This document shows positions 13,993 to 62,939 of a stretch of 64,000 nt of DNA, piece by piece (positions within the stretch are counted from its first letter, which is position 1; every line of letters begins with the position of its first letter). Under the pieces are notes generated by a model. That model was not told the origin of the DNA. It searched no databases and saw only the letters and a program-made list of their open reading frames with translations. A program made the translations under genes and the position numbers. Source of the DNA: Quisquiliibacterium transsilvanicum. Lineage in GTDB: Bacteria > Pseudomonadota > Gammaproteobacteria > Burkholderiales > Burkholderiaceae_E. The stretch is from NCBI RefSeq assembly GCF_014202215.1, contig NZ_JACHGB010000001.1:124001-188000 (forward strand). Reading direction: 5' to 3'.

Positions 13993-15210
13993 ATGCACTT
14001 GGCAGCGAACCGGGACGACACGCAGAACATGGCCGTGTTCTGCGACTTCGAGAACGTGGCCCTCGGCGTCAAGGACGCCCGCTACAGCCAGTTCGACATC
14101 AGCAAGGTGCTCGAACGCCTGCTGCTCAAGGGCAGCATCGTGGTGAAGAAGGCCTATTGCGACTGGGAGCGCTACCGCGAGTTCAAGGCAGCGATGCACC
14201 AGGCATCCTTCGAACTGATCGAGATCCCGCACCTGCGGATGTCCGGCAAGAACTCCGCTGACATCCGCATGGTCGTGGACGCGCTGGACCTCTGCTACAC
14301 GAAGTCGCACGTCGACACCTTCGTGATCATCAGCGGCGACTCCGACTTCTCGCCGCTGGTCAGCAAGCTGAGGGAGAACGCGAAGACCGTGATCGGGGTG
14401 GGCGTGAAGAACTCCACCTCGGACCTGCTGATCGCCAACTGCGACGAGTTCATCTACTACGACGACCTGGTGCGCGGCCAGCCGTCCGCCAGCCGCACGC
14501 GTGCGGCCGCCCGAGGCGCAGCGGTGCGGGCCCGTCCCGAGGCAGCGAAGGCCGTGGCCGGCAAGCCGGAAGCGGCCAGGGGCGATGCTCAGAAGGGTGA
14601 TGCTGCCAAGGGCGATTCCGTCAAGGGCGATGCCGTGAAGGCCGACGCCCCCCGGCGTCGCGGCGCCAAGGGCACAGCCAGCAAGGCATCAGCGCGCAAC
14701 GGAGCCGCAGCCGATCAGCCCGAGATCGAGAACGAACCCGAGGCCGCCGCCACGGTGCCGGCCTGGTATCCGACCATCGTGGAGGAGTCGCCAGACGCCG
14801 AAGCGCAGGGCGCCGAGGGCATGGCGGCCGGTGCCGAGTCCGGTACCGCATCCGGGACCGCATCCGGGACCGCATCCGGGACCGAGCCCGGGATCGAGCC
14901 CGGGACCGAGTCCGGGACCGAGTCCGAGCCCGGCGCATCGCATGAGTCCTCGCCCGAAGAGCGCGCGCAGCAGGCGCTCGACCTGGTGGTCGACACCATC
15001 GAGGCGCTCGCCGAGGAACGCGGCGAGGACGAGAAGATCTGGGGATCGATGGTCAAGCAGACCCTCAAGCGCAGGCGGCCCGGCTTCAACGAGACCTACT
15101 ACGGCTACCGCTCCTTCAACCGTCTGCTCGAGGAGGCGCGCGAGCGCGGGCTGATCGAGCTGGAGCGCGACGAGAAGTCCGGCGGCTACACGGTGCGAAG
15201 CCTCGCCTGA
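13993..15210 (+). CDS. NYN-domain putative RNase with C-terminal OST-HTH (LOTUS) domain
   Basis: The 405-residue protein has an N-terminal NYN (PIN-like) nuclease domain, residues 12-160, with acidic residues at Asp18 (CDFENV) and in SGDSDFSPL (Asp116, Asp118), and C-terminal OST-HTH/LOTUS sequence from about 320 to 402. These domains are known to cleave and bind RNA respectively; the target is unknown. Between them is a 150-residue disordered linker with two internal tandem repeats, GDxxK pentapeptides and SGTA/SGTE tetrapeptides. ATG 13993 is used, but TTG at 13999 sits better behind the GAGG at 13987. It follows pfkA by 59 bases. Confidence 0.88.
   Translation: MHLAANRDDTQNMAVFCDFENVALGVKDARYSQFDISKVLERLLLKGSIVVKKAYCDWERYREFKAAMHQASFELIEIPHLRMSGKNSADIRMVVDALDLCYTKSHVDTFVIISGDSDFSPLVSKLRENAKTVIGVGVKNSTSDLLIANCDEFIYYDDLVRGQPSASRTRAAARGAAVRARPEAAKAVAGKPEAARGDAQKGDAAKGDSVKGDAVKADAPRRRGAKGTASKASARNGAAADQPEIENEPEAAATVPAWYPTIVEESPDAEAQGAEGMAAGAESGTASGTASGTASGTEPGIEPGTESGTESEPGASHESSPEERAQQALDLVVDTIEALAEERGEDEKIWGSMVKQTLKRRRPGFNETYYGYRSFNRLLEEARERGLIELERDEKSGGYTVRSLA
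14581..14640 (+). repeat. Four 15-bp in-frame repeats in the NYN-protein linker
   Basis: Four adjacent 15-base units encode GDAQK, GDAAK, GDSVK and GDAVK. The units differ mainly in the third to fifth codons and look like a decayed minisatellite. They add a basic, flexible stretch to the linker. Confidence 0.85.
14839..14922 (+). repeat. Seven 12-bp in-frame repeats in the NYN-protein linker
   Basis: Seven tandem 12-base units of the form tccgggaccgca or tccgggaccgag encode SGTA, SGTA, SGTA, SGTE, PGIE, PGTE and SGTE. Several neighbouring copies are identical, indicating recent expansion, and the unit length keeps the frame, so length change would not break the protein. Confidence 0.9.
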
Positions 15211-25296: not shown

Positions 25297-26952
25297 ATGA
25301 GCGAGAAACCGGTGTACAGGGTGGGGGCCGCGGGCCTCGATCCCCGCGACTGGCGGCTGATCGAGATCGTGTTCCGGCATAGCCAGTACAACCGGTTCGA
25401 GTTTCGGCTGGCCGCGCGGATCGATGCCGAGACGATCGACGTGCTGATCGCGAATCCCGCCGACCCGGATGGGGTGGAGGCCCTGGCCTGCATTGGCGAG
25501 GCGTCGCGGCGGATTCCCTTCGTCGAGGCGGTGCCGCGCGGCGCGTCGGCCTCGTCGCCGCACGCGATCTCGATCGAGCGCCTCACCCTCCAACTGCTGC
25601 CGGTTTTGAACCGGGTGGTCGAACTCGAACTGCAGGGTGCGGTGGCGGGTGCATCCGTGGATGCGGTGTCGACGGATGTCGGCGCGGTACCGGAGTCGGT
25701 CGCAAAGGCCGGGGTTCCAGCCGACGCCGGGGCCCTTGCCGGGACGGTTGCCGACCGCGGGACGGTCGCCGATTCCGGGACGGTCGCCGATTCCGGGACG
25801 GTCGCCGATGCCGGGACGGTCGCCCATGCCGGGACGGTCGCCGATGCCGGGACGGTCGCCGATGCCGGGACGGTCGCCCATGCCGGGACGGTCGCCGATG
25901 CCGGGACGGTCGCCGATGCCGGGGGCGACGCAGCCGCGGCATCGGAGCCGTTGCCGGAGCCCGCTGGGCCGTGGACCCCGGGCCGTCTGGAAGGCTCCCT
26001 TGCCGCGCCGCTGCTGCAGCGGTCCGCGAATCCGCTGGCGCCGCACGGATCGCTGCCACTGCGCGGTGAGGCGCCAGCCCCCTCCGAGCCCAACGTCGCC
26101 CGGCAAACCGCCACTGGCGAGCCCGCCCATCCGGCGCGGGACGCTGCGGTTCGCGCAGGAATGCACGCTTCCCGGCCGGCGCCTGCGGTCGCAACGGCCT
26201 CGGCAGCGCCCGCTGTGCCCTCGGCCGTGGCACCGCCGCCGGGCCGGCTCGCCGAGCAGCCGGCGCAGTCCCTCAACCCGCTTGCGCCGCGCCCCGATCA
26301 GCTCATGCCGGACACCGCAGCCCGTCCGCCCGCCGGGAGCTCGCCGGCTCCCCGGCAGCCGGTCCAGCGGCCGCAGCCCTCCAGGGGGGATGCCGCGGCG
26401 GCCGCGGCGCGCTCCAACCTGGTGAGCTTCCCGCGCCAGGGCGCCGGCGAGCGCGGCGCCACGACGCGGCTGCGCGTGCTGGTGGTCGACGACAGTCCGA
26501 CAGTGCGCCGCCAGCTCGGGCTCGCCTTCGATCGTCTGGGGCTCGAGTGCGAAGCAGCGTCCAGCGCCGCGGAGGCTCTGCGCAGCCTGGACGAAGGCCA
26601 TTTCGACCTGATCCTGGTCGACGTGGTAATGCCCGACATGGACGGCTACCGGCTCACGCGGGAGATCAAGCGCAACCGGCGGCTTCGCGGCCTGCCTGTG
26701 ATCATCCTGACCAGCCGCTCCTCGCCTTTCGATCTTGCCCGCGGCGCCCTGGCCGGCTGCGACACCTACCTGACCAAACCGGTGCCGTTCCGGGCGCTGG
26801 AAAAGGCGGTGCTCAGGCAGTTGCGACGCTCGCTTGCGATCGACGATCTCGGCGCCTTGGTGCGCAGCGCCGCCGAGCCGGCTGCGCCGGAGCCCCCGGC
26901 GTCGACGGCAGCGCAGACGCTGGGGCGCGTCGCGCGCCTGTTCGGCCGCTGA
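25297..26952 (+). CDS. pilG: PilG-like response regulator with long N-terminal extension
   Basis: The 551-residue protein ends in a full receiver domain (about 392-515): Asp398/Asp399, phospho-acceptor Asp442 in LVDVVMPDMDG, and the LTKP lysine. P. aeruginosa PilG is only about 135 residues. Residues 1-115 resemble a degenerate receiver: VLIANPADPDG stands where a phosphorylation site would be, and ISIERLTLQLLPVLNRV resembles the last helix. Residues 149-208 are ten GTVADx repeats, then a Pro/Ala-rich linker. As first gene of the pilGHIJ-chpA operon it should relay phosphate from ChpA to the pilus extension machinery. AGGA precedes ATG 25297. Confidence 0.85.
   Translation: MSEKPVYRVGAAGLDPRDWRLIEIVFRHSQYNRFEFRLAARIDAETIDVLIANPADPDGVEALACIGEASRRIPFVEAVPRGASASSPHAISIERLTLQLLPVLNRVVELELQGAVAGASVDAVSTDVGAVPESVAKAGVPADAGALAGTVADRGTVADSGTVADSGTVADAGTVAHAGTVADAGTVADAGTVAHAGTVADAGTVADAGGDAAAASEPLPEPAGPWTPGRLEGSLAAPLLQRSANPLAPHGSLPLRGEAPAPSEPNVARQTATGEPAHPARDAAVRAGMHASRPAPAVATASAAPAVPSAVAPPPGRLAEQPAQSLNPLAPRPDQLMPDTAARPPAGSSPAPRQPVQRPQPSRGDAAAAAARSNLVSFPRQGAGERGATTRLRVLVVDDSPTVRRQLGLAFDRLGLECEAASSAAEALRSLDEGHFDLILVDVVMPDMDGYRLTREIKRNRRLRGLPVIILTSRSSPFDLARGALAGCDTYLTKPVPFRALEKAVLRQLRRSLAIDDLGALVRSAAEPAAPEPPASTAAQTLGRVARLFGR
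25741..25920 (+). repeat. Ten 18-bp in-frame tandem repeats (GTVADx) in pilG
   Basis: Ten uninterrupted copies of an 18-base unit close to gggacggtcgccgatgcc encode GTVADR, GTVADS twice, then GTVADA and GTVAHA variants. Copies 4-10 are almost identical and show a higher-order period of three units (ADA, AHA, ADA). The frame is kept whatever the copy number. There are no spacers, so this is a minisatellite and not a CRISPR array. Confidence 0.95.
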
Positions 26953-26971: not shown

Positions 26972-27343
26972 ATGGTGACGCAGGCCCGGCTGGCGCTGGT
27001 AGTCGACGATTTCGCGCCCGAGCGCGAGCGGATCGGCGGAATTCTTGCCGGTGCCGGCTGGCGGGTGAGCGTGGCGGCGAGCGGCGAGGACGCGCTCGCG
27101 CGGGCTCGCCGGGAGCGGCCCGAGATCATCTTCATGGACATCGTGATGCCCGGCATGGACGGCTTCGAAGCCTGTCGGCGGCTTGCCGACGACCCCCACA
27201 CCCGCGCGATCCCGGTCGTGTTCGTCTCCACCAAGTGCCAGCGTGCCGATCAGGTCTGGGCGCGAATGCAGGGCGGCAGGGAACTGATCGGCAAGCCGTA
27301 TTCACCGTCGCAACTGGTCGGGGCGCTCCGGCATGCCGGCTGA
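26972..27343 (+). CDS. pilH: PilH-like single-domain response regulator
   Basis: The 123-residue protein is a lone receiver domain with Asp12/Asp13, phospho-acceptor Asp56 in IFMDIVMPGMDGFEACRRL, the Ser/Thr switch in VVFVSTK and the lysine in LIGKPYSP. PilH is thought to act as a phosphate sink or retraction output opposing PilG. The ATG at 26972 lies 19 bases after the pilG stop; a GTG one codon later is possible. The end overlaps pilI by 11 bases. Confidence 0.88.
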   Translation: MVTQARLALVVDDFAPERERIGGILAGAGWRVSVAASGEDALARARRERPEIIFMDIVMPGMDGFEACRRLADDPHTRAIPVVFVSTKCQRADQVWARMQGGRELIGKPYSPSQLVGALRHAG

Positions 27344-27794
27344 GCGGCAGGCTGCGGCAGGCGCGCAGGCGCCCGAGCGCTTCGGCGTGCTGGTCGCCGG
27401 CGTTCCCCTGCTGCTGCCCGCGGTGGCGCTGGAGCACGTCGCGGCGGCCACGGTGTTCCCGCTGCCCGGCGCGGGCGAGCATGTCCTCGGGCTCATGCAG
27501 TTGCGCGGCCATCCGGTGGTGGTCCTGGACGCGGGGCCGGCTGCCGAGCAGCGCAGGGCGCCCGCGCACCGTGCGTCCCTGCTGGTGATCGGCACGCCGC
27601 CCGAGGCGGGCGCGCTGGTGGTCGACGGGGCGCCACGGGCGGTGCGCGTCGCAGCGGGCTGTCCGCAGGCGGGCCGGCCGCAGGCGTCCTTTGCCGACGC
27701 GCTCGGCGAGGCGCTTCAGGATGCGGACGACGGATCGACGCTCTGGTGGCATTTCGATCCCAGGAAGCTGTTCGAACTCCTGGCGGGGCGCTGA
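27333..27794 (+). CDS. pilI: PilI-like CheW-domain coupling protein
   Basis: The 153-residue protein is a CheW-like coupling domain, weakly conserved in sequence but with the usual pattern: FGVLVAGVPLLLPAVALEHV at the start, GLMQLRGHPVVVLDAG in the middle and a C-terminal DPRKLFELL. It should bridge the receptor PilJ and the kinase ChpA at the inner membrane. It overlaps pilH by 11 bases and abuts pilJ with no gap, so identification rests partly on position. Confidence 0.82.
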   Translation: MPAERQAAAGAQAPERFGVLVAGVPLLLPAVALEHVAAATVFPLPGAGEHVLGLMQLRGHPVVVLDAGPAAEQRRAPAHRASLLVIGTPPEAGALVVDGAPRAVRVAAGCPQAGRPQASFADALGEALQDADDGSTLWWHFDPRKLFELLAGR

Positions 27795-29183
27795 ATGGGG
27801 CGGCCGCAGGCTCGAATCCGGACGGGGCCGATCGCGCTGCGGCTGGGCCTGCTCGTGCTCGGGGCGGCGCTCGCTCCGGTACTGCTGATGGCGGCCGTGC
27901 TGGCTGCCTCCGGCGCGGCGGCAGGGGGCGCGCTCTGGGTCGCCGTCGCCGCGGCGGCGCTGGCCGGCGCGGGTCTTGCGCTGGCGGTGGCGGGCTGGTT
28001 TTCGCGGCGCGTCGGCGCGCGGCTGGCGCGGGTGGGCGACGTTCTGCATGAGCTCTCCGCCGGTGTTTCCTCGGCGCGCACCGGGCTGGCCGACGATGAC
28101 GAGGTCGGCGCGGTCGGCCAGGCCCTCGACCGGCTGTTCGACCGGCGCATCGAGGCCTTGCAGCGGGCGGCGCGCGACAGCGAGGAGCTCAACGATTCGG
28201 TGATCGAGATCATGCAGGCGGTCGGCACCATCGCGAGCCGCAAGGACCTGACGATCCGCGTGCCGGTGACCGAGAACGTGACGGGGGCGATCGCCGACGC
28301 GCTGAATCTGCTCACCGATGAGACGCGGCGGCTGCTGCTGAGCGTGCGCTCGGTGTCGCAGGACGTTGCGCGGGCGACCGTGGCGGTGAAATCGCAGTCC
28401 GACACGGCGGCTCGCGCGGCAGCGCGCGAGCAGCGCGAGGTGGAGTTCGCCGCCCGCGAACTGGCGGCAGCGGCCCAGGCGCTCGACGCGATCGCGGCGC
28501 GTGCGCGCGCCTGCAACGATGCGGCCGGCCGCGCGGTCGAAGCCGCAGGGGAGGCGATGCGGACGGTGGAAGGAACGGTTCAGGGGATCGCGCACTCCCG
28601 TTCGCTGATCCGTGAGACCGAGAAGCGCATCAAGCGCCTGGGCGAGCGCTCGCAGGAGGTGGGGCAGGTGGTGGGAATCATCCGGGACATCGCGGAGCGG
28701 ACCGGCATCCTGGCGCTGAACGCGTCGATGCAGGCGGCAGCGGCAGGGCCGGCGGGGCGCAGCTTCGCGGTGGTGGCGGACGAGGTCAAGCGGCTGTCGG
28801 AGTCCGCGCGGTCGGCCACCGTCGAGATCGGCGACCTGGTCGGCGCGATCCAGTCCGAGACGGGCGAAACCACGGTGGCGATGAACCAGGCGATCTCGCG
28901 GATCGTCCAGGTGAGCAGGCTGGCCGAGGAAGCCGGCGCCGGGATGCTGCGCACCCGCGAGCAGACCGACGCGCTGGCGGCGACCGTGCGCGACATCGCC
29001 CGAACCTCGTCGGAGCAGGCCAAGGTGGGGGCTGCGCTCCAGGAGCGGGCGCGCATCATCCAGGAGGCCAGCAACGAGACCGCGCGGCAGCTTTCCCTGC
29101 AGGCGGCGGAAACCCTGCGGCTGGTCGAAAGCGCGAAGGCGCTGATGCGCGAGGTCAGCGTGTTCCGGTTGAGCGAGCGATGA
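27795..29183 (+). CDS. pilJ: PilJ-like methyl-accepting chemotaxis protein with minimal periplasmic loop
   Basis: The 462-residue receptor has two hydrophobic helices (about residues 13-38 and 45-67) joined by only a few residues, then a HAMP-like segment and a long coiled-coil signalling domain whose tip reads AERTGILALNASMQAAAAGPAGRSFAVVADEVKRLSE. P. aeruginosa PilJ is about 680 residues with a large periplasmic sensor region; here that region is missing. The cytoplasmic tip required for CheW and kinase contact is intact. Its last four bases overlap chpA. Confidence 0.88.
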   Translation: MGRPQARIRTGPIALRLGLLVLGAALAPVLLMAAVLAASGAAAGGALWVAVAAAALAGAGLALAVAGWFSRRVGARLARVGDVLHELSAGVSSARTGLADDDEVGAVGQALDRLFDRRIEALQRAARDSEELNDSVIEIMQAVGTIASRKDLTIRVPVTENVTGAIADALNLLTDETRRLLLSVRSVSQDVARATVAVKSQSDTAARAAAREQREVEFAARELAAAAQALDAIAARARACNDAAGRAVEAAGEAMRTVEGTVQGIAHSRSLIRETEKRIKRLGERSQEVGQVVGIIRDIAERTGILALNASMQAAAAGPAGRSFAVVADEVKRLSESARSATVEIGDLVGAIQSETGETTVAMNQAISRIVQVSRLAEEAGAGMLRTREQTDALAATVRDIARTSSEQAKVGAALQERARIIQEASNETARQLSLQAAETLRLVESAKALMREVSVFRLSER

Positions 29184-32100
29184 GCGCCGGATCGATGCGC
29201 CCGGACGACGCAGCCGCCATTCCCTTCGAGCGCCTGAACGAGGCCTCGGTGGCGCTGCTCGACCCCTTGTTCGAGCCGCTTGCCGAGGCCGAGCCGCAGC
29301 GCACCGCTGCGCGTCTGGGCGACGCGATCATGCATTGCGCGCAGGTGGCCGATTCGCTGGGGCTGCGCAGCCTGAACTACCTCGCGACGCTGATGGTTCC
29401 CTACCTGCAGCGCGAGGCCGGCGGAGACGGGTGGCCAGGGACCCGGGATCGGATCGAAGGCTGGATCGGCCGGATCATCGCCTTCTGCGCCGGGCATGCG
29501 TCGCCGGAGGAGGCCACCCTGCTGGTCAACGACCTGCACTCCTGGCCGTCCTTTCCGGAGGTGCCCGAGCAGTTCGTGAACCTGATCGCAGCGCGGCTGC
29601 GCCAGGACTGCGCGCTGGTGGCGGAGCTGGTGGCGGAGCTGGCCAGTGCGCCTCCGATGGCCTCGGTGGCGCGCGACGAGCTCGAAATGCTGCTGGAGGC
29701 GGTCGAGGGCCTGGAGGCCGAGGTGATCGGGCCGCTGGCGGGCATCGGGCTGCCGCCGCCGCCGGCTGCGCTCGGCGCAGTGTCCGATCTCGTCGACCTC
29801 TGCCGCGAGCGGCTCGGCAATCTTGCCGGCGCGATGCGCTACGTCGGCCTGGCGCCTGCGGCGGACCTGCTTGAGCCGTGCCGGGAGAGCCTGGCGGCCT
29901 GGCGCGATGCCCCGGCCTCCGCCAGCCCCGAGGCCCCGGAGCTGCTGCACGGGCTGACCCAGGCCCTGGCGGCCTTCCTGCGCGATCCCGCCGGGCCTGC
30001 GCTCATGGCCCTCGAGGGCGCGTGCACCGACGCGCGCTGGCCGGTGCGCGGCGAGGGGGTCGGCGCGCAAGCACGGGCGGCGCTGCTCGGCCTGGAGGTG
30101 GTCGGGTCGCGCAGGATCGAGGCGCCATCCGGACAGCTCGACGCCGACGACGTTTCACTGGAGCTTGCGCCGGATGCCGACGCTTCGGTCCTGGGCCACC
30201 TTCTGCCCGAGCTGGCGGCGCTTTCGGCAGGGTTCTCCGAACAGATCGACCGGCTCGTTGCTGCGGCAGCGTCCGCGCAGGGCCGGTCCTGGCCTTCGGC
30301 CGAAAAGGTGGGCGAGGATGCGTGCGAAGAGGTGCCCGAAGAGGTGCCCGAAGAGGTGGCCGAGCCGCTGGCCGAAGCCCGGCGGATCGCGCACACGCTG
30401 AAGGGCGCTGCGAACACCGTCGGCATCCGCGGAATCGCGTTGCTGACCCACCGGCTCGAGGACCTGCTGCAGCTGCTCGGTGAGCGCAGCGGCACGCCGG
30501 ATGCCGCCACCCGGAACGCGCTGACGGAGGCGGCCGACTGCCTCGCCGAGATGGCCGACGCAGTCGCTGGACTGGGCGAGGGCCCGGCGGATGCCCTCGG
30601 AGTGTGCCGCTCCCTCGGGGCGCACATCGACGCGCTGCTGTCTGCGGGGGCGCCACCAGACCGGCCAGAGGAGGCGCAGCCGCTGCCCGGCTTGCAGTCG
30701 GAGTCGTCCGGGCCGTCGCAGCAGGCGGGGCCCTCGTCTTCGCTCGAACCGCCGTCGACGCTGCCCGATGCCTGGGAGAGCGAGCCTTCCGCACCGTCGC
30801 CGGAGAGCGCGGCCTCTGCGCCGGCTCCCGCGCCGGCTCCCGCGCCGGCGCAGGTCGGCGAGCTGCTGCGCGTGCCGGCTTCGCTGCTGGACCGGATCCT
30901 CGATCTCGCCGGGGAGGCGGGCATCCTGCTCGCACGGGTCCAGGAGCAGGTCGATCAGCTGGGCGAAGTGCGCCAGGCCTTCCGCACCGACAGCGACCGC
31001 CTGCGGGTCCTGGCAGGGGAACTCGAGGGGCTGGTCGACATCCGCGGCGTGAGCCTGTCCGGCCGGCGCCCGGGCAGCGATTTCGACCCGCTCGAGCTCG
31101 ACGACTTCAACGAACTCCACACCGTGTCCCGGCGCATCGCCGAAGCGGGCGCCGACGCCCGTGTGCTGGACCATCAGCTCGACCGGCAGGGGGCGGATCT
31201 TGCCGAGGCAGTGGGCCAGCTGGAGCGGGTGCAGACGGACCTGCGCGAGGCGGTGATGCAGTCTAGGCTGGTGCCGGTGCGGTCGGTTTTGCCGCGCCTG
31301 CAGCGGGTGGCCAGGCAGGCCGCGCGAATGGCCGGCAAGACGGTGGAGCTGACTGTTGCCGGCGAGGACACCGCAGTCGACGCGCGGCTGCTCCAGGGGC
31401 TCCTCGAGCCGATCGGCCACCTGCTGCGCAACGCGATCGACCACGGCATCGAGCCCGCGGCGGAACGCGAGCGCGCCGGCAAGGCGGCCGCCGGGCGCGT
31501 TTCGCTGCGCTTTGGACGCGACGGGCGCCGCCTGATCGTGCATTGCACCGACGACGGGCGCGGGCTCGATCTCGATGCGATCCGGGCGCGGGCGCAGGAG
31601 GCCGGGCTGATCGATCCCGCTGCGGCCCCGGGGCCGGAGGCGCTCGCCCGGCTGGTGCTGGAGCCCGGCTTCTCCACGCGCCGTCAGGCAACCCAGCTCT
31701 CGGGGCGCGGCATCGGGCTGGACGTGGTGCAGCGCGCGGTGCGGGCGCTGCGCGGCGAGATCGAACTAGCTGCGGCCGACGGCGCAGGCCTGGAAGTCCG
31801 GATCGAGGTTCCCGAAGGCATGGTTGCGATCCCGGTCGTGCTGGTGCGCACGCCCAGCCACGTGCTGGCGCTGTCGATCAGGGGCGTTGAGCGGATCCTC
31901 CCGGCAGACGGTGCGGTGCGCGACGACGCCGGCGCACTGCGCTTTGTCGGCGCCCACGGACTGGTGCCCGCGGTGCGGCTCGACGAGCTGCTCGGCCTTC
32001 CCGAAGGGTTCTTCGCGCGCGAGGCCGAGGCGGCGCGGCTGTCGGGGCGGCAGCACGCGGCGGCTGCGCCCGATCCGGGCGCGGGCGAGGTGGCGATGCT

Positions 32101-32710
32101 GGTGCGGGGCCTGGATGGGAGCAGGGTGGCGGTGCTCTCTCCGCCGCCCGGCCAGACCCGCAACGTGGTGGTGCGGCCGCTGCCGCCGTGGCTGCCGTCG
32201 ACCTCCGCGGTCGAGGGCGCGACGGTGCTGGGCGATGGCGCGGTGGCGACGGTGCTCGACCTGCCGGCACTGGTGGCGCCCGGGGCTTCGCTGGCCGCCT
32301 CGCGTTTTCCGGAGCAGCAGATCCAGCGCCTGCCGGTGTGCCTCGTGGCGGACGATTCGGTCAGCGTGCGGCGCTCGCTGCAGCTGTTCCTCGAGGATCT
32401 CGGTTTCGAGGTGGATTCGGCGGCCGATGGCGTCGATGCGCTCGCGCTGGCCGCGCGCAGGGTGCCGGCGCTGGCGATCGTGGACCTGGAGATGCCGAGG
32501 ATGAACGGGGTGGAGCTGTGCCGGGCGCTGCGCGCGGATCCGCGCACCCGCGAGGTGCCGGTGCTGATGATCACCTCGCGCAGCTCGGAGCGTCACCGGG
32601 CGCTGGCGCGGGAGGCCGGAGTCGACGTCTTCCTGACCAAGCCCTACGGCGAGGACGAACTGGCATCGGAGATCCGCCGCTGCCTTGTGGGCCGCACTGC
32701 ACTGGGCTAG
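29180..32710 (+). CDS. chpA: ChpA/PilL-like hybrid chemotaxis histidine kinase
   Basis: The 1176-residue protein has N-terminal Hpt-like helical modules without a clear histidine. A canonical Hpt at about 385-450 has His405 in RIAHTLKGAANTVG. A long Pro/Ser-rich linker is followed by the HATPase domain with N-box LLRNAIDHGIE and G-boxes DDGRGLDL and SGRGIGLDVV, a CheW-like regulatory region, and a C-terminal receiver with Asp1102 in VDLEMPRMNG. It phosphorylates PilG and PilH. P. aeruginosa ChpA has about 2470 residues and eight phosphotransfer domains, so this is a much reduced version. It starts in a four-base overlap with pilJ. Confidence 0.9.
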   Translation: MSAGSMRPDDAAAIPFERLNEASVALLDPLFEPLAEAEPQRTAARLGDAIMHCAQVADSLGLRSLNYLATLMVPYLQREAGGDGWPGTRDRIEGWIGRIIAFCAGHASPEEATLLVNDLHSWPSFPEVPEQFVNLIAARLRQDCALVAELVAELASAPPMASVARDELEMLLEAVEGLEAEVIGPLAGIGLPPPPAALGAVSDLVDLCRERLGNLAGAMRYVGLAPAADLLEPCRESLAAWRDAPASASPEAPELLHGLTQALAAFLRDPAGPALMALEGACTDARWPVRGEGVGAQARAALLGLEVVGSRRIEAPSGQLDADDVSLELAPDADASVLGHLLPELAALSAGFSEQIDRLVAAAASAQGRSWPSAEKVGEDACEEVPEEVPEEVAEPLAEARRIAHTLKGAANTVGIRGIALLTHRLEDLLQLLGERSGTPDAATRNALTEAADCLAEMADAVAGLGEGPADALGVCRSLGAHIDALLSAGAPPDRPEEAQPLPGLQSESSGPSQQAGPSSSLEPPSTLPDAWESEPSAPSPESAASAPAPAPAPAPAQVGELLRVPASLLDRILDLAGEAGILLARVQEQVDQLGEVRQAFRTDSDRLRVLAGELEGLVDIRGVSLSGRRPGSDFDPLELDDFNELHTVSRRIAEAGADARVLDHQLDRQGADLAEAVGQLERVQTDLREAVMQSRLVPVRSVLPRLQRVARQAARMAGKTVELTVAGEDTAVDARLLQGLLEPIGHLLRNAIDHGIEPAAERERAGKAAAGRVSLRFGRDGRRLIVHCTDDGRGLDLDAIRARAQEAGLIDPAAAPGPEALARLVLEPGFSTRRQATQLSGRGIGLDVVQRAVRALRGEIELAAADGAGLEVRIEVPEGMVAIPVVLVRTPSHVLALSIRGVERILPADGAVRDDAGALRFVGAHGLVPAVRLDELLGLPEGFFAREAEAARLSGRQHAAAAPDPGAGEVAMLVRGLDGSRVAVLSPPPGQTRNVVVRPLPPWLPSTSAVEGATVLGDGAVATVLDLPALVAPGASLAASRFPEQQIQRLPVCLVADDSVSVRRSLQLFLEDLGFEVDSAADGVDALALAARRVPALAIVDLEMPRMNGVELCRALRADPRTREVPVLMITSRSSERHRALAREAGVDVFLTKPYGEDELASEIRRCLVGRTALG
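30326..30361 (+). repeat. Three 12-bp in-frame repeats in chpA
   Basis: Three units, gaagaggtgccc twice and a variant gaagaggtggcc, encode EEVPEEVPEEVAE, an acidic stretch just upstream of the Hpt histidine. A second simple stretch at about 30820-30852 encodes alternating Ala-Pro in the linker before the kinase core. Confidence 0.8.
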
Positions 32711-36468: not shown

Positions 36469-37909
36469 AGTCGTTCTCGACATCGAATCGCTCGATCTCG
36501 AGGCCAACGGCATTGCGCGGCTCGACGGCAAAGTCGTGTTCGTGCGCGACGCGCTGCCCGGCGAGCGGGTGCGCGCCGCCGTGGTGCGGCGCAAGCCCAA
36601 GTACGACGTTGCCCAGACCCTTGAGGTGCTGCGGCCCAGCAGCATGCGCGCAGTGCCGCGCTGTCCGCATTTCGGCGTCTGCGGCGGCTGCTCGATGCAG
36701 CACCTGGACGCGCGCACCCAGCTCGCGATCAAGCAGCGCGCACTGGAGGATCAGCTCTGGCACATCGGCAGGGTCCGGGCCGGCACCATGCTGCGTCCGA
36801 TCGCAGGCCCTGCCTGGGGCTACCGCTACCGCGCGCGCCTTTCGGTGCGGCACGTGCCCAAGAAGGGCGGGGTGCTGGTGGGCTTCCACGAGCGTGGTTC
36901 GAGCTACGTCGCCGACATGCGCGAGTGCCATGTTCTGGATCCGCGCGCAGCGGCGCTGCTGCTCCCGCTGCGCGACCTCATCGGCGGGCTGGACATGCGC
37001 GACCGCATGCCGCAGATCGAGGTCGCCTCCAGCGCTGACGCGCTCGCGCTGGTGTTCCGCGTGCTCGATACGCCGACGCCCGGCGACCGCGACCGGCTGG
37101 TGGCCTTCGCTCGCGAACATCGGTTCGAGCTCTGGTTCCAGTCGAAGGGGCCGGAAACCATCGAGCTGATCCACGCGCCGGATTCGCCTCCGGATGCGCC
37201 GGTCTCGCGGCTGGCCTACGCGCTTCCCGAGTTCTCGGTGGTCATGCCCTTCCGGCCAACCGATTTCACCCAGGTCAATCATCGGATCAATGAGGTGCTG
37301 GTGTCGCGGGCGGTTCGCCTGCTCGACCCGCAGGCCGACGATCGTGTCGCCGATCTGTTCTGCGGGCTCGGAAATTTCTCGCTGCCGCTGGCGCGCCGCG
37401 CGCGGGAGGTGATGGGCATCGAGGGCAGCACGACGCTGGTCGCGCGAGCGCGAGAGGCTGCCGAGGCCAATGGCATCGGCGAGGATCGCACCCGCTTCGA
37501 GGCGGCGAACCTGTTCGAGCTCACGCCGGAGAACTGGCAGGCCCTGGGGCCCTTCGACCGGGTGCTGATCGATCCGCCCCGCGAGGGCGCGCTGGAGGTC
37601 TGCAAGGCGCTGGCGGCCGATCCCCGCAAGCCTGCAAGGATCGTCTACGTCTCCTGCAATCCGGCGACGCTGGCGCGCGATGCCGGGGTGCTGGTGAACA
37701 CCGGCGGGTTCCGGCTGGTGGCTGCCGGGGCGGTGAACATGTTTCCGCACACCTCCCACGTGGAGTCGATGGCGGTGTTCGAGCCCGATCCGGATGCGCC
37801 GCTGGGCGACGCAATGGCCTCCGAGGCAACGGCGGCTGACGCAACGGCGGCTGACGCAACGGCGGCTGACGAGGCGTCGGCAGACGCAGGAAGGACTGAC
37901 GATGAATGA
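36440..37909 (+). CDS. rlmD: 23S rRNA (uracil(1939)-C(5))-methyltransferase
   Basis: The 489-residue enzyme has an N-terminal TRAM domain, a [4Fe-4S] site formed by Cys75, Cys81, Cys84 and Cys163, and a C-terminal SAM methyltransferase domain with [22 protein letters not shown] and catalytic Cys406 in [13 protein letters not shown]. It methylates U1939 of 23S rRNA. The C-terminus is unusual: after the normal end it carries an acidic, Ala/Asp-rich tail with three ATAAD repeats. The start overlaps the exonuclease by 29 bases; the end overlaps cinA by 8. Confidence 0.94.
37825..37869 (+). repeat. Three perfect 15-bp in-frame repeats at the rlmD 3' end
   Basis: The unit gcaacggcggctgac occurs three times in tandem with no mismatch and encodes ATAAD. 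It is in the C-terminal tail, outside the methyltransferase domain. Confidence 0.9.
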
Positions 37910-49494: not shown

Positions 49495-50738
49495 GCGACA
49501 CTCCTACCATCTTCCGCGCCCTCATCGTCGGCGTCACCTTCGGGTCGGCGCCGGCCAGCGAGCAGGCGCTCGACGAGGCCTGCGCACTTGCGGCATCGGC
49601 GGGGTACCTGCCCGTCGACCGTGTCGCGGTGCGCCGTCCCCGGCCCGATGCAGCGCTCTCCATGGGCAGCGGCAAGGCCGAAGAGATCAAGGCGCGGATC
49701 GAGGCCGAGGACATCGGCTTCGTCATCTTCGACAATCCGCTGTCCCCGGTGCAGCAGCGCAACCTGAATCGCCTATGGGGCGTTCCGGTGCTCGACCGCA
49801 CCGAGCTCATCCTCGACATCTTCGCCCAGCGCGCGCGCAGCAACGAGGGCAAGCTGCAGGTCGAGCTCGCGCGCATCGAGCACCAGCTCACCCGCCTGGT
49901 GCGGGGCTGGACTCACCTCGAACGTCAGCGCGGCGGCATCGGCCAGCGCGGCGGTCCGGGGGAGAAGCAGATCGAACTTGACCGCCGGATGCTGGATGGC
50001 AAGGCGCGGCGGCTTCGCGAGCGGCTGCATCGCCTCGCGCGCCAGCGGCGCACCCGGCGCAGGGCGCGCGGGCGCAACGATGCCTACATGGTCTCGCTGG
50101 TCGGCTACACCAATGCCGGCAAGTCGACGCTGTTCAACGCGCTGACCGGGGCGGGCACCTACGAAGCCGACCAGCTCTTCGCCACCCTCGACACCCTGAC
50201 GCGCCGCCTGCGGCTGCCCAACGGCGAGATGGTGGTGCTGTCAGACACGGTGGGCTTCGTGCGCGACCTGCCGCACCAGCTCGTCGAGGCGTTCCGCGCG
50301 ACGCTCGAGGAAACCGCCCAGGCCGACCTGCTGCTGCACGTGGTCGACGTCTCCGCGGCGGATCGCGACGAGCAGGTCGAGCAGGTCGAGCGGGTGCTTG
50401 CCGAGATCGGCGCAGCCGAGGTCCCGACGATTGTCGTTTTCAACAAGATCGACGCCGCTGGCCTCACGCCGGAAGTGGGGCGCGACCCCTGTGGTAGCAT
50501 CGACCGCTTGTGGGTAAGCTCCCGCACCGGCGAAGGGCTCGACCGGTTGCGCGCGGTCCTTGCGGAGCGGGCGGCGGCGAGCCGGACTGTCGGGCAGGCT
50601 GATGCCGGGCAGGCCGACGCCGGGTCGCAATCGCAGTTGCAGCACATCGACGGCGGCGCTCCAGAAGCCGAGCCCGCCGATCATCAACCCGTCGTGGTTC
50701 CCATGGCCGCAAGCGGCCCCTCCGGGGCTCGCGCCTGA
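49491..50738 (+). CDS. hflX: GTPase HflX, probably starting at CTG
   Basis: The 415-residue ribosome-associated GTPase has the HflX N-terminal domain ([36 protein letters not shown]), the glycine-rich [15 protein letters not shown] loop and a GTPase domain with [12 protein letters not shown] and [11 protein letters not shown]. The conserved N-terminus RALIVGV begins only seven codons into the frame, before the first GTG (49629), and the frame contains no ATG, GTG or TTG upstream of it. CTG at 49491, overlapping the hfq stop as CTGA, is the best start. The tail has short GQADA repeats. The hfq-hflX-hflK-hflC order is conserved. Confidence 0.92.
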
Positions 50739-61806: not shown

Positions 61807-62939
61807 CCGGCCTGCTGCTGGGCGTGGATCTGGGCGGCACCAAGGGGCTGCTCGCACTGTTCGAGCCGGGCGCATCGCGGCCGCTGCTGCAGCAGCGCTA
61901 CGCATGCGCGGAATTCGACGGTTTCGAGCCGATGCTGGGGCGCTTCCTGGACGAGGCCGCAGCTCAGCTCGGGCCGCTGGCGGCGCGGCCGGCAGCGGCC
62001 TGCATCGGCCTGGCCGGGCCGGTGGCCGGGCGACGGGCGACGCTGACCAACCTGCCTTGGACGCTGGACGCCGAGGGCCTGCGGCGGCGCTTCGCGCTCG
62101 GGCCGGTCCGGCTCGTCAACGACTTCGCCGCTGCCGCTGCCGGCGTCGCCAGCCTCGACGCGGATGGCGTGCGCACTCTGCAGGCTGGCGCGCCGATTGC
62201 CGATGCGCCGCGGGTGATCCTCGGGCCAGGCACCGGCTTGGGCGCAGCGACGATGTTCCCGGTGGGCAGCCGCTGGCGGATCGCCGGCGGCGAGGGCGGG
62301 CACCTGGGGCTCGCCCCGCGCAGCGAGCTCGAGGTAGAGCTGTGGCGCTGGCTGCATGCCCGGCATCGCGGCCGCGTGAGCGCCGAGCGGGTGCTCTGCG
62401 GCCCCGGCCTGGCGGATCTCTACCGATTCCTGGCCGAGCGAAGCGGCAGCGGCGCGCACGACCCGCTGCTGGCCGCGGACGATCCGGCGGCGGCGGTCTC
62501 GACTGCGGCGCTGGCGTCTTCGCCGGGAGCCGAGCCGGGAGCCATGCCGGGAGCCATGCCGGGAGCCATGCCGGGAGCCGCTTCCGCCGCGCGTCCGGTT
62601 GCGCAGCCGAGCGAGGACGCCTGCGCGGACGCCGCCCCCGTGCGCGCCCGCGCGACCCAGGCGTTGGACCTGTTCGCTTCGATGCTCGGCGCCTTCGCGG
62701 GCGACCTGGCGCTGCTGAGCTTGCCGCGGGCCGGTCTCTACCTGGCCGGCGGCGTTGCGCCACGGATCATGGACGCGCGGCGCGGCGCGTGCTTCCTGGC
62801 GGGCTTCGGCGACAAGGGCCGGCACGCGGGGCTGATGGCGGGCGTGCCGGTGCGGCTGGTCACCGATCCCGCGCTCGGAGTGCTGGGCGCGGGCGTACTG
62901 GCTTCCGGGCAGGCGAGGGTGCTGGGCAGCGGGCGCTGA
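61803..62939 (+). CDS. glk: Glucokinase with repeat insertion
   Basis: The 378-residue Glk-family kinase phosphorylates glucose with ATP. GVDLGGTKGLLALFE is the phosphate loop, LVNDFAAAAAGVASLD contains the catalytic aspartate, and GPGTGLGAATMF and GGEGGHLGLAPRS follow. Compared with a usual length of about 320-340, it carries an insertion at about residues 235-275, before TQALDLFASMLGAFAGDLALL, with GAMP repeats. The C-terminal FLAGFGDKGRHAGLMAGVPVRLVTDP is typical. Together with pfkA and glgC it fits sugar entry and glycogen metabolism. Confidence 0.92.
   Translation: MTGLLLGVDLGGTKGLLALFEPGASRPLLQQRYACAEFDGFEPMLGRFLDEAAAQLGPLAARPAAACIGLAGPVAGRRATLTNLPWTLDAEGLRRRFALGPVRLVNDFAAAAAGVASLDADGVRTLQAGAPIADAPRVILGPGTGLGAATMFPVGSRWRIAGGEGGHLGLAPRSELEVELWRWLHARHRGRVSAERVLCGPGLADLYRFLAERSGSGAHDPLLAADDPAAAVSTAALASSPGAEPGAMPGAMPGAMPGAASAARPVAQPSEDACADAAPVRARATQALDLFASMLGAFAGDLALLSLPRAGLYLAGGVAPRIMDARRGACFLAGFGDKGRHAGLMAGVPVRLVTDPALGVLGAGVLASGQARVLGSGR
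62523..62582 (+). repeat. Five 12-bp in-frame repeats in glk
   Basis: Five consecutive units, ccgggagccatg three times flanked by two variants, encode a PGAE/PGAM run within the glk insertion. The middle three are identical. Confidence 0.9.

Follow-up and report, generated by a model that had tools for sequence, protein, structure and literature searches.

What does an array of ten 18-bp units do inside the gene of a putative motility regulator? The array lies in a 64-kb stretch, referred to here as the window, of the genome of Quisquiliibacterium transsilvanicum (Burkholderiaceae). A sequence-only reading of this DNA had proposed that variation in copy number changes the length of a linker without frameshift, and that twitching might be tuned in this way. 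The analysis presented here points to a simpler answer. The array is probably a recently expanded coding minisatellite, accommodated in a length-tolerant tether, predicted to be disordered, that joins a putative pseudo-receiver to the phospho-receiver in a Pil-Chp regulator of the PilG type.

The regulator heads a set of genes in the order pilG-pilH-pilI-pilJ-chpA (Table 1), the neighbour order of a Pil-Chp PilG. Its divergent upstream neighbour is an O-acetylhomoserine aminocarboxypropyltransferase gene. The motif AGGAAG is found immediately 5' of the ATG and, in alignment, the orthologs share the start methionine. At the one ortholog locus examined (L062), CheW and chemoreceptor genes are likewise located downstream. 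The source genome encodes PilB, above the family cut-off, as well as the FimV core. It has no flagellin C-terminal domain, and a flagellar role was therefore ruled out. The presence of PilB and FimV and the absence of the flagellin domain fit a surface-motile, pilus-driven cell. The designation of the gene as a motility regulator, already made in the sequence-only reading, is thus a fair one, drawn from the Pil-Chp gene order and from this gene content. In Pseudomonas aeruginosa, PilG reportedly affects both where the extension ATPase PilB is located and how active it is (PMC12632253). By analogy with that protein, the regulator of the window may control pili.

Table 1. Features of the regulator gene and of the downstream Pil-Chp genes, in positions of the window
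Feature	Position	Strand	Basis or remark
Response regulator of 551 aa, PilG-like: putative pseudo-receiver, linker predicted to be disordered, receiver and a short tail at the C-terminus	25297..26952	+	Open frame
N-terminal domain, with a predicted receiver-like fold that lacks both the acidic pair and the phospho-Asp	25297..25650	+	AlphaFold2, structural matches, alignment
Low-complexity linker, predicted disordered, length lineage-variable	25651..26472	+	pLDDT, family census
Ten 18-bp units	25741-25920	+	Code GTVAD(A/S/R) or GTVAHA; all in regulator frame (frame 0)
Linker motif SNLVSFP, just 5' of receiver	26413..26433	+	Conserved among PilG-type linkers
Receiver domain with D398 D399, D442, T472, K494	26476..26811	+	PF00072, E 2.7e-26
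pilH-like single receiver	26972..27343	+	PF00072, E 9e-21; start picked by eye
pilI-like CheW protein	27333..27794	+	PF01584, E 3.7e-5, barely above cut-off
pilJ-like chemoreceptor	27795..29183	+	PF00015, E 1.7e-27
chpA-like kinase: Hpt, HATPase, CheW-like, receiver domains	29180..32710	+	Pfam; short EEVP, AP repeats at 30300-30377, 30818-30849

In Pseudomonas, PilG is a small protein made of one receiver. The receiver of the window regulator has the residues expected of PilG, i.e. the acidic pair, the phospho-Asp, the Thr/Ser and the Lys, all of which are invariant in two alignments. When compared with solved structures, its sequence retrieved general receivers alone, such as PleD, RcsC and CheY. 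The protein is 551 residues long, with a second domain and a linker, and is therefore PilG-like by position and receiver rather than a canonical single-domain PilG. No Pfam match was obtained for the second domain (residues 1-118). It was modelled by AlphaFold2 with a pLDDT of 89.5 (45 sequences) and a receiver-like order of strands and helices. The best Foldseek rows were mostly receivers and the pseudo-receiver of KaiA, with no match at E 0.001 or below. In a second structural comparison (Z 10.2-11.7 over 101-113 residues), the matches listed were nearly all receiver domains. In alignment, no acidic pair follows strand 1 and an Asn stands where the paralog described below has the strand-3 Asp. 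On the strength of the predicted fold and of the alignment, this domain is read as a putative pseudo-receiver. The two domains are separated by a region that is predicted to be disordered, the pLDDT of the full-length model being mostly 40-55 across residues 120-390, array included. The same model has a pTM of 0.41, and no domain arrangement was read from it. The array contributes about 60 of the about 270 linker residues.

In the 64-kb window, Tandem Repeats Finder assigned to the array a score of 318, with 10.4 copies, a period of 18 and 92% matches at 25737-25923, against 116 for the second-best array. Unit boundaries were set at GGGACGGT. The resulting ten copies agree exactly with those of the sequence-only reading and are all in frame; ten is the number as assembled, and short reads can mis-size a 180-bp array. 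The most diverged copy is unit 1 (GTVADR), four bases off the consensus. Units 2 and 3 are each one base off (GCC to TCC, Ala to Ser), as are units 5 and 8 (GAT to CAT, a G-to-C change, Asp to His). The consensus is matched at every base by units 4, 6, 7, 9 and 10. Units 2-10 consequently code for GTVADS, GTVADS, GTVADA, GTVAHA, GTVADA, GTVADA, GTVAHA, GTVADA and GTVADA, and the differences among them are all nonsynonymous, although too few to read. The near-identity of copies 4-10 and their three-unit period had been rightly noticed: the period runs D-H-D, D-H-D, D. The simplest account of the G-to-C change shared by units 5 and 8 is a 54-bp duplication, with units 4-6 and units 7-9 as its two copies. 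Recent expansion, as previously proposed, is the best reading of units 4-10, as these differ at one base and do so in a three-unit period.

The distribution of the unit agrees with this. A unit pair with at most three mismatches was found in 1/74 family genomes, the source genome alone. All 18-bp units with at most one mismatch (9/9) sit inside the array and none elsewhere in the genome, which rules out a dispersed-repeat origin. In a plasmid DNA collection, all matches were weak (60-80% identity or short), whether in adhesins, in a HAMP-domain protein or in DNA without annotation. Codon shuffles of the whole linker (n=1000) reached a score of at least 50 in 105 cases, and their best score was 95 versus the 318 observed. 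The array is a coding minisatellite in the usual sense, with at least three head-to-tail copies of a 10-100 bp unit that is divisible by three and lies in a gene.

The linker was then compared across the family, in collections with one genome per species. The N-terminal domain was matched in 57/74 family genomes, and two gene classes share both domains: the PilG-type genes (class A) and an orphan paralog (class B). The paralog of the source genome (L038:7444-8571) has a short linker, keeps the Asp of the N-terminal domain and is located outside any chemotaxis cluster, among what we take, by eye, to be arginine-synthesis genes and the gene of elongation factor P. Linkers were counted in distinct genes with HMMs that had been seeded from the rows of an earlier regex-based census. 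The PilG-type class comprised 36 rows, reduced to 35 by removal of a near-duplicate (L071 versus L132). Seven PilG-type rows (five genes) without a same-frame receiver, apparently at contig ends, were dropped, and three genes were kept despite a partial N-terminal domain (L030), a cut receiver (L148) or a weak receiver (L166).

PilG-type linkers range from 32 to 388 aa with a median of about 125 (n=35), and paralog linkers from 20 to 71 aa with a median of 29 (n=52). When gene pairs at least 90% identical across both domains are considered, the linkers are of unequal length in 7/7 PilG-type pairs versus 0/25 paralog pairs, a comparison in which pairs are not independent and short-linker PilG-type orthologs vary less. 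The PilG-type pairs were drawn from 34 genes, i.e. 561 pairs, one gene being excluded because its domain was too short. In the seven pairs, the median difference is 16 aa and the maximum 34. The paralog linkers of the same genomes are of equal length in the five of these seven pairs that were checkable (29/29 in four, 34/34 in one). The notion of in-frame length change is thus borne out between species, the unit being a multiple of three and linker length changing often between related species.

Arrays with a score of at least 60 were found in 14/35 PilG-type linkers, all 14 with periods divisible by 3, and in 0/52 paralog linkers. Total linker sequence amounts to 14.4 kb in the former versus 5.1 kb in the latter, and part of the array contrast is therefore a matter of length, there being more room. 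Arrays of this score with at least three copies occur in 9/35 PilG-type linkers, with units that differ between them: STAAA, EPKP, AADE, PTQ, a seven-residue EP-PR repeat and, in the window, GTVADA. The GTVADA repeat is present in no other family linker listed. The nearest ortholog (78% domain identity) has a linker of 228 aa, versus 282 aa for the window gene, and is devoid of the GTVADA array; no ortholog at 70-78% domain identity has an array of this type. The nearest congeners show 71-77% identity over longer 5' DNA matches.

One element of the linker is conserved. The motif SNLVxFP is present, immediately N-terminal to the receiver, in 23/35 PilG-type linkers versus 0/52 paralog linkers. 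Outside PilG-type linkers, 511,174 aa of open frames (a 400-kb genome sample plus the window) gave a single match, SNLLYLP, in another frame. SNLVxFP is kept while other linker sequence turns over, and the linker is therefore not wholly free. That the motif serves as a docking site is our guess. A second conserved motif, TRDFLREAxRxSREGD, was observed in 10/35 PilG-type linkers (e.g. L054:4001-5116, L055:4001-5014, L062:4001-5023) and is absent in the window.

In-frame arrays are not peculiar to the regulator. Within the window, others were identified in genes coding for an NYN-domain protein, a glucokinase and ChpA, and in the tail regions of two other genes (37808-37888, 50591-50624). The linker of the NYN-domain protein contains two of them (15 bp and 12 bp, 14575-14926), and the glucokinase gene a 12-bp array (AMPG repeats, 62522-62579) beyond the first Pfam stretch, which runs to residue 349. 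In the 400-kb genome sample, 59/70 arrays of score at least 50 have a period divisible by three. The 18-bp array has the top score among arrays of at least three copies in the sample and window together, an exact two-copy duplication scoring higher. An exact 285-bp two-copy tandem duplication of the same genome (L244:2859-3428) is either recent or an assembly artefact. Collagen-like GPTGPQG repeats were also observed in this genome, in a 722-codon open frame (L231:186-1852). The G+C content of the window is 71%, and the 18-bp array is a strong case of a feature common in its G+C-rich source genome. Its kind is already known: the GTVADA array is a further example of a coding minisatellite in a disordered linker.

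These observations bear on the proposal that copy number tunes twitching. Tuning of the contingency type would involve copy-number change at a high rate within populations, linker length setting the output of PilG and hence twitching. A period divisible by three, near-identical units and a linker length that is labile between species are what such a system would display, and there is a parallel in Neisseria, where a repeat between two domains of the pilus secretin PilQ is reported to be polymorphic and to affect pilus formation (PMC3441751). However, the unit is private to one genome, the orthologs have other repeats or none, and like arrays are present in unrelated genes. The roughly tenfold range of linker length shows no visible constraint. 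In the library searched, no paper was found to link variable repeats with both twitching and in-frame change; the titles and abstract openings retrieved report no tandem repeat in PilG. The searches on pseudo-receivers found nothing that associates one with PilG, and those on intragenic repeats, linkers and disordered linker length found nothing on a PilG-linker system. Tuning of twitching by copy number is therefore unlikely, and this part of the sequence-only reading went unsupported.

It is also quite improbable that the amino-acid sequence of the units is itself selected, the GTVADA copies being retained because they bind a partner through avidity or form a structured repeat. The regularity of the ten units would agree with such a role, but the region is predicted to be disordered and the unit is found neither in the other linkers listed nor, as a pair, in any of the 74 genomes except one. 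Nor is the copy number likely to be, even partly, the product of a collapsed or expanded assembly, and we regard this as very doubtful: the array does exceed one short read, but the substitutions in units 1-3, 5 and 8 anchor it, and independent assemblies of relatives hold similar repeats. A function of the array as DNA or RNA with an incidental coding frame is extremely improbable, as an antisense gene, for which a 710-aa open frame on the opposite strand could speak, is ruled out by conservation of the forward-frame protein on both sides of the array (antisense open frames being common at 71% G+C), and a regulatory RNA element by the absence of any Rfam match and by a fold no better than that of shuffles (z -0.10).

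The reading favoured here, that of an expanded minisatellite in a length-tolerant tether, implies the following course of events. The 18-bp unit would have been multiplied by slippage or unequal exchange, slippage being the presumed cause, and the 54-bp duplication of three units would have come after unit growth. The frame would have been kept throughout because the unit is 18 bp long. In-frame growth would be tolerated because a tether must flex but need not have a fixed length, so that linker length may be nearly neutral. Each lineage would make its own tether from its own repeats. Instead of near-neutrality, selection on linker length could differ between species.

The regulator can be compared with several known systems. 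Like Pseudomonas aeruginosa PilG, it heads the pilG-pilH-pilI-pilJ-chpA order and has an intact receiver, in a genome with PilB and FimV; unlike that protein, it has a putative pseudo-receiver and a long repeat-bearing linker preceding the receiver. The small basic repeats of Neisseria PilQ are likewise of low complexity and separate two domains of a protein of the type IV pilus; they are reported to be polymorphic and to affect pilus formation (PMC3441751). PilQ is, however, a secretin of the outer membrane and its repeats are basic, whereas the window regulator is cytoplasmic with GTVADA repeats. The linker also resembles the Q-linkers and low-complexity regions of bacterial multidomain regulators, which are described as flexible interdomain linkers rich in few residues (PMC6821194); it differs from these by its near-perfect DNA minisatellite and by the conserved SNLVxFP. 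The N-terminal pseudo-receiver of KaiA, which is among the top Foldseek rows, has the same receiver fold without phospho-acceptor, but the predicted pseudo-receiver of the window is joined to an intact receiver and not to a clock domain.

By itself, the array is an ordinary coding minisatellite. The value of the locus is that of a natural comparison: two paralogs with the same domains are present in the same genomes, and the linker of one is length-labile between close relatives while that of the other is not. This contrast allows it to be asked experimentally whether linker length matters in a chemotaxis-type regulator. The two-domain PilG, with its putative pseudo-receiver and SNLVxFP, also seems worth a study of its own. 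A bolder proposal, to which we give little credence at present, is that the two-domain PilG linker of this Burkholderiales group is a fast-evolving tether whose repeats are replaced in each lineage while the paralog linker is frozen, and that tether length sets the frequency of contact of the pseudo-receiver with the phospho-receiver or with a partner. If this were true, the PilG tether would give surface motility an adjustable gain, driven by the repeats.
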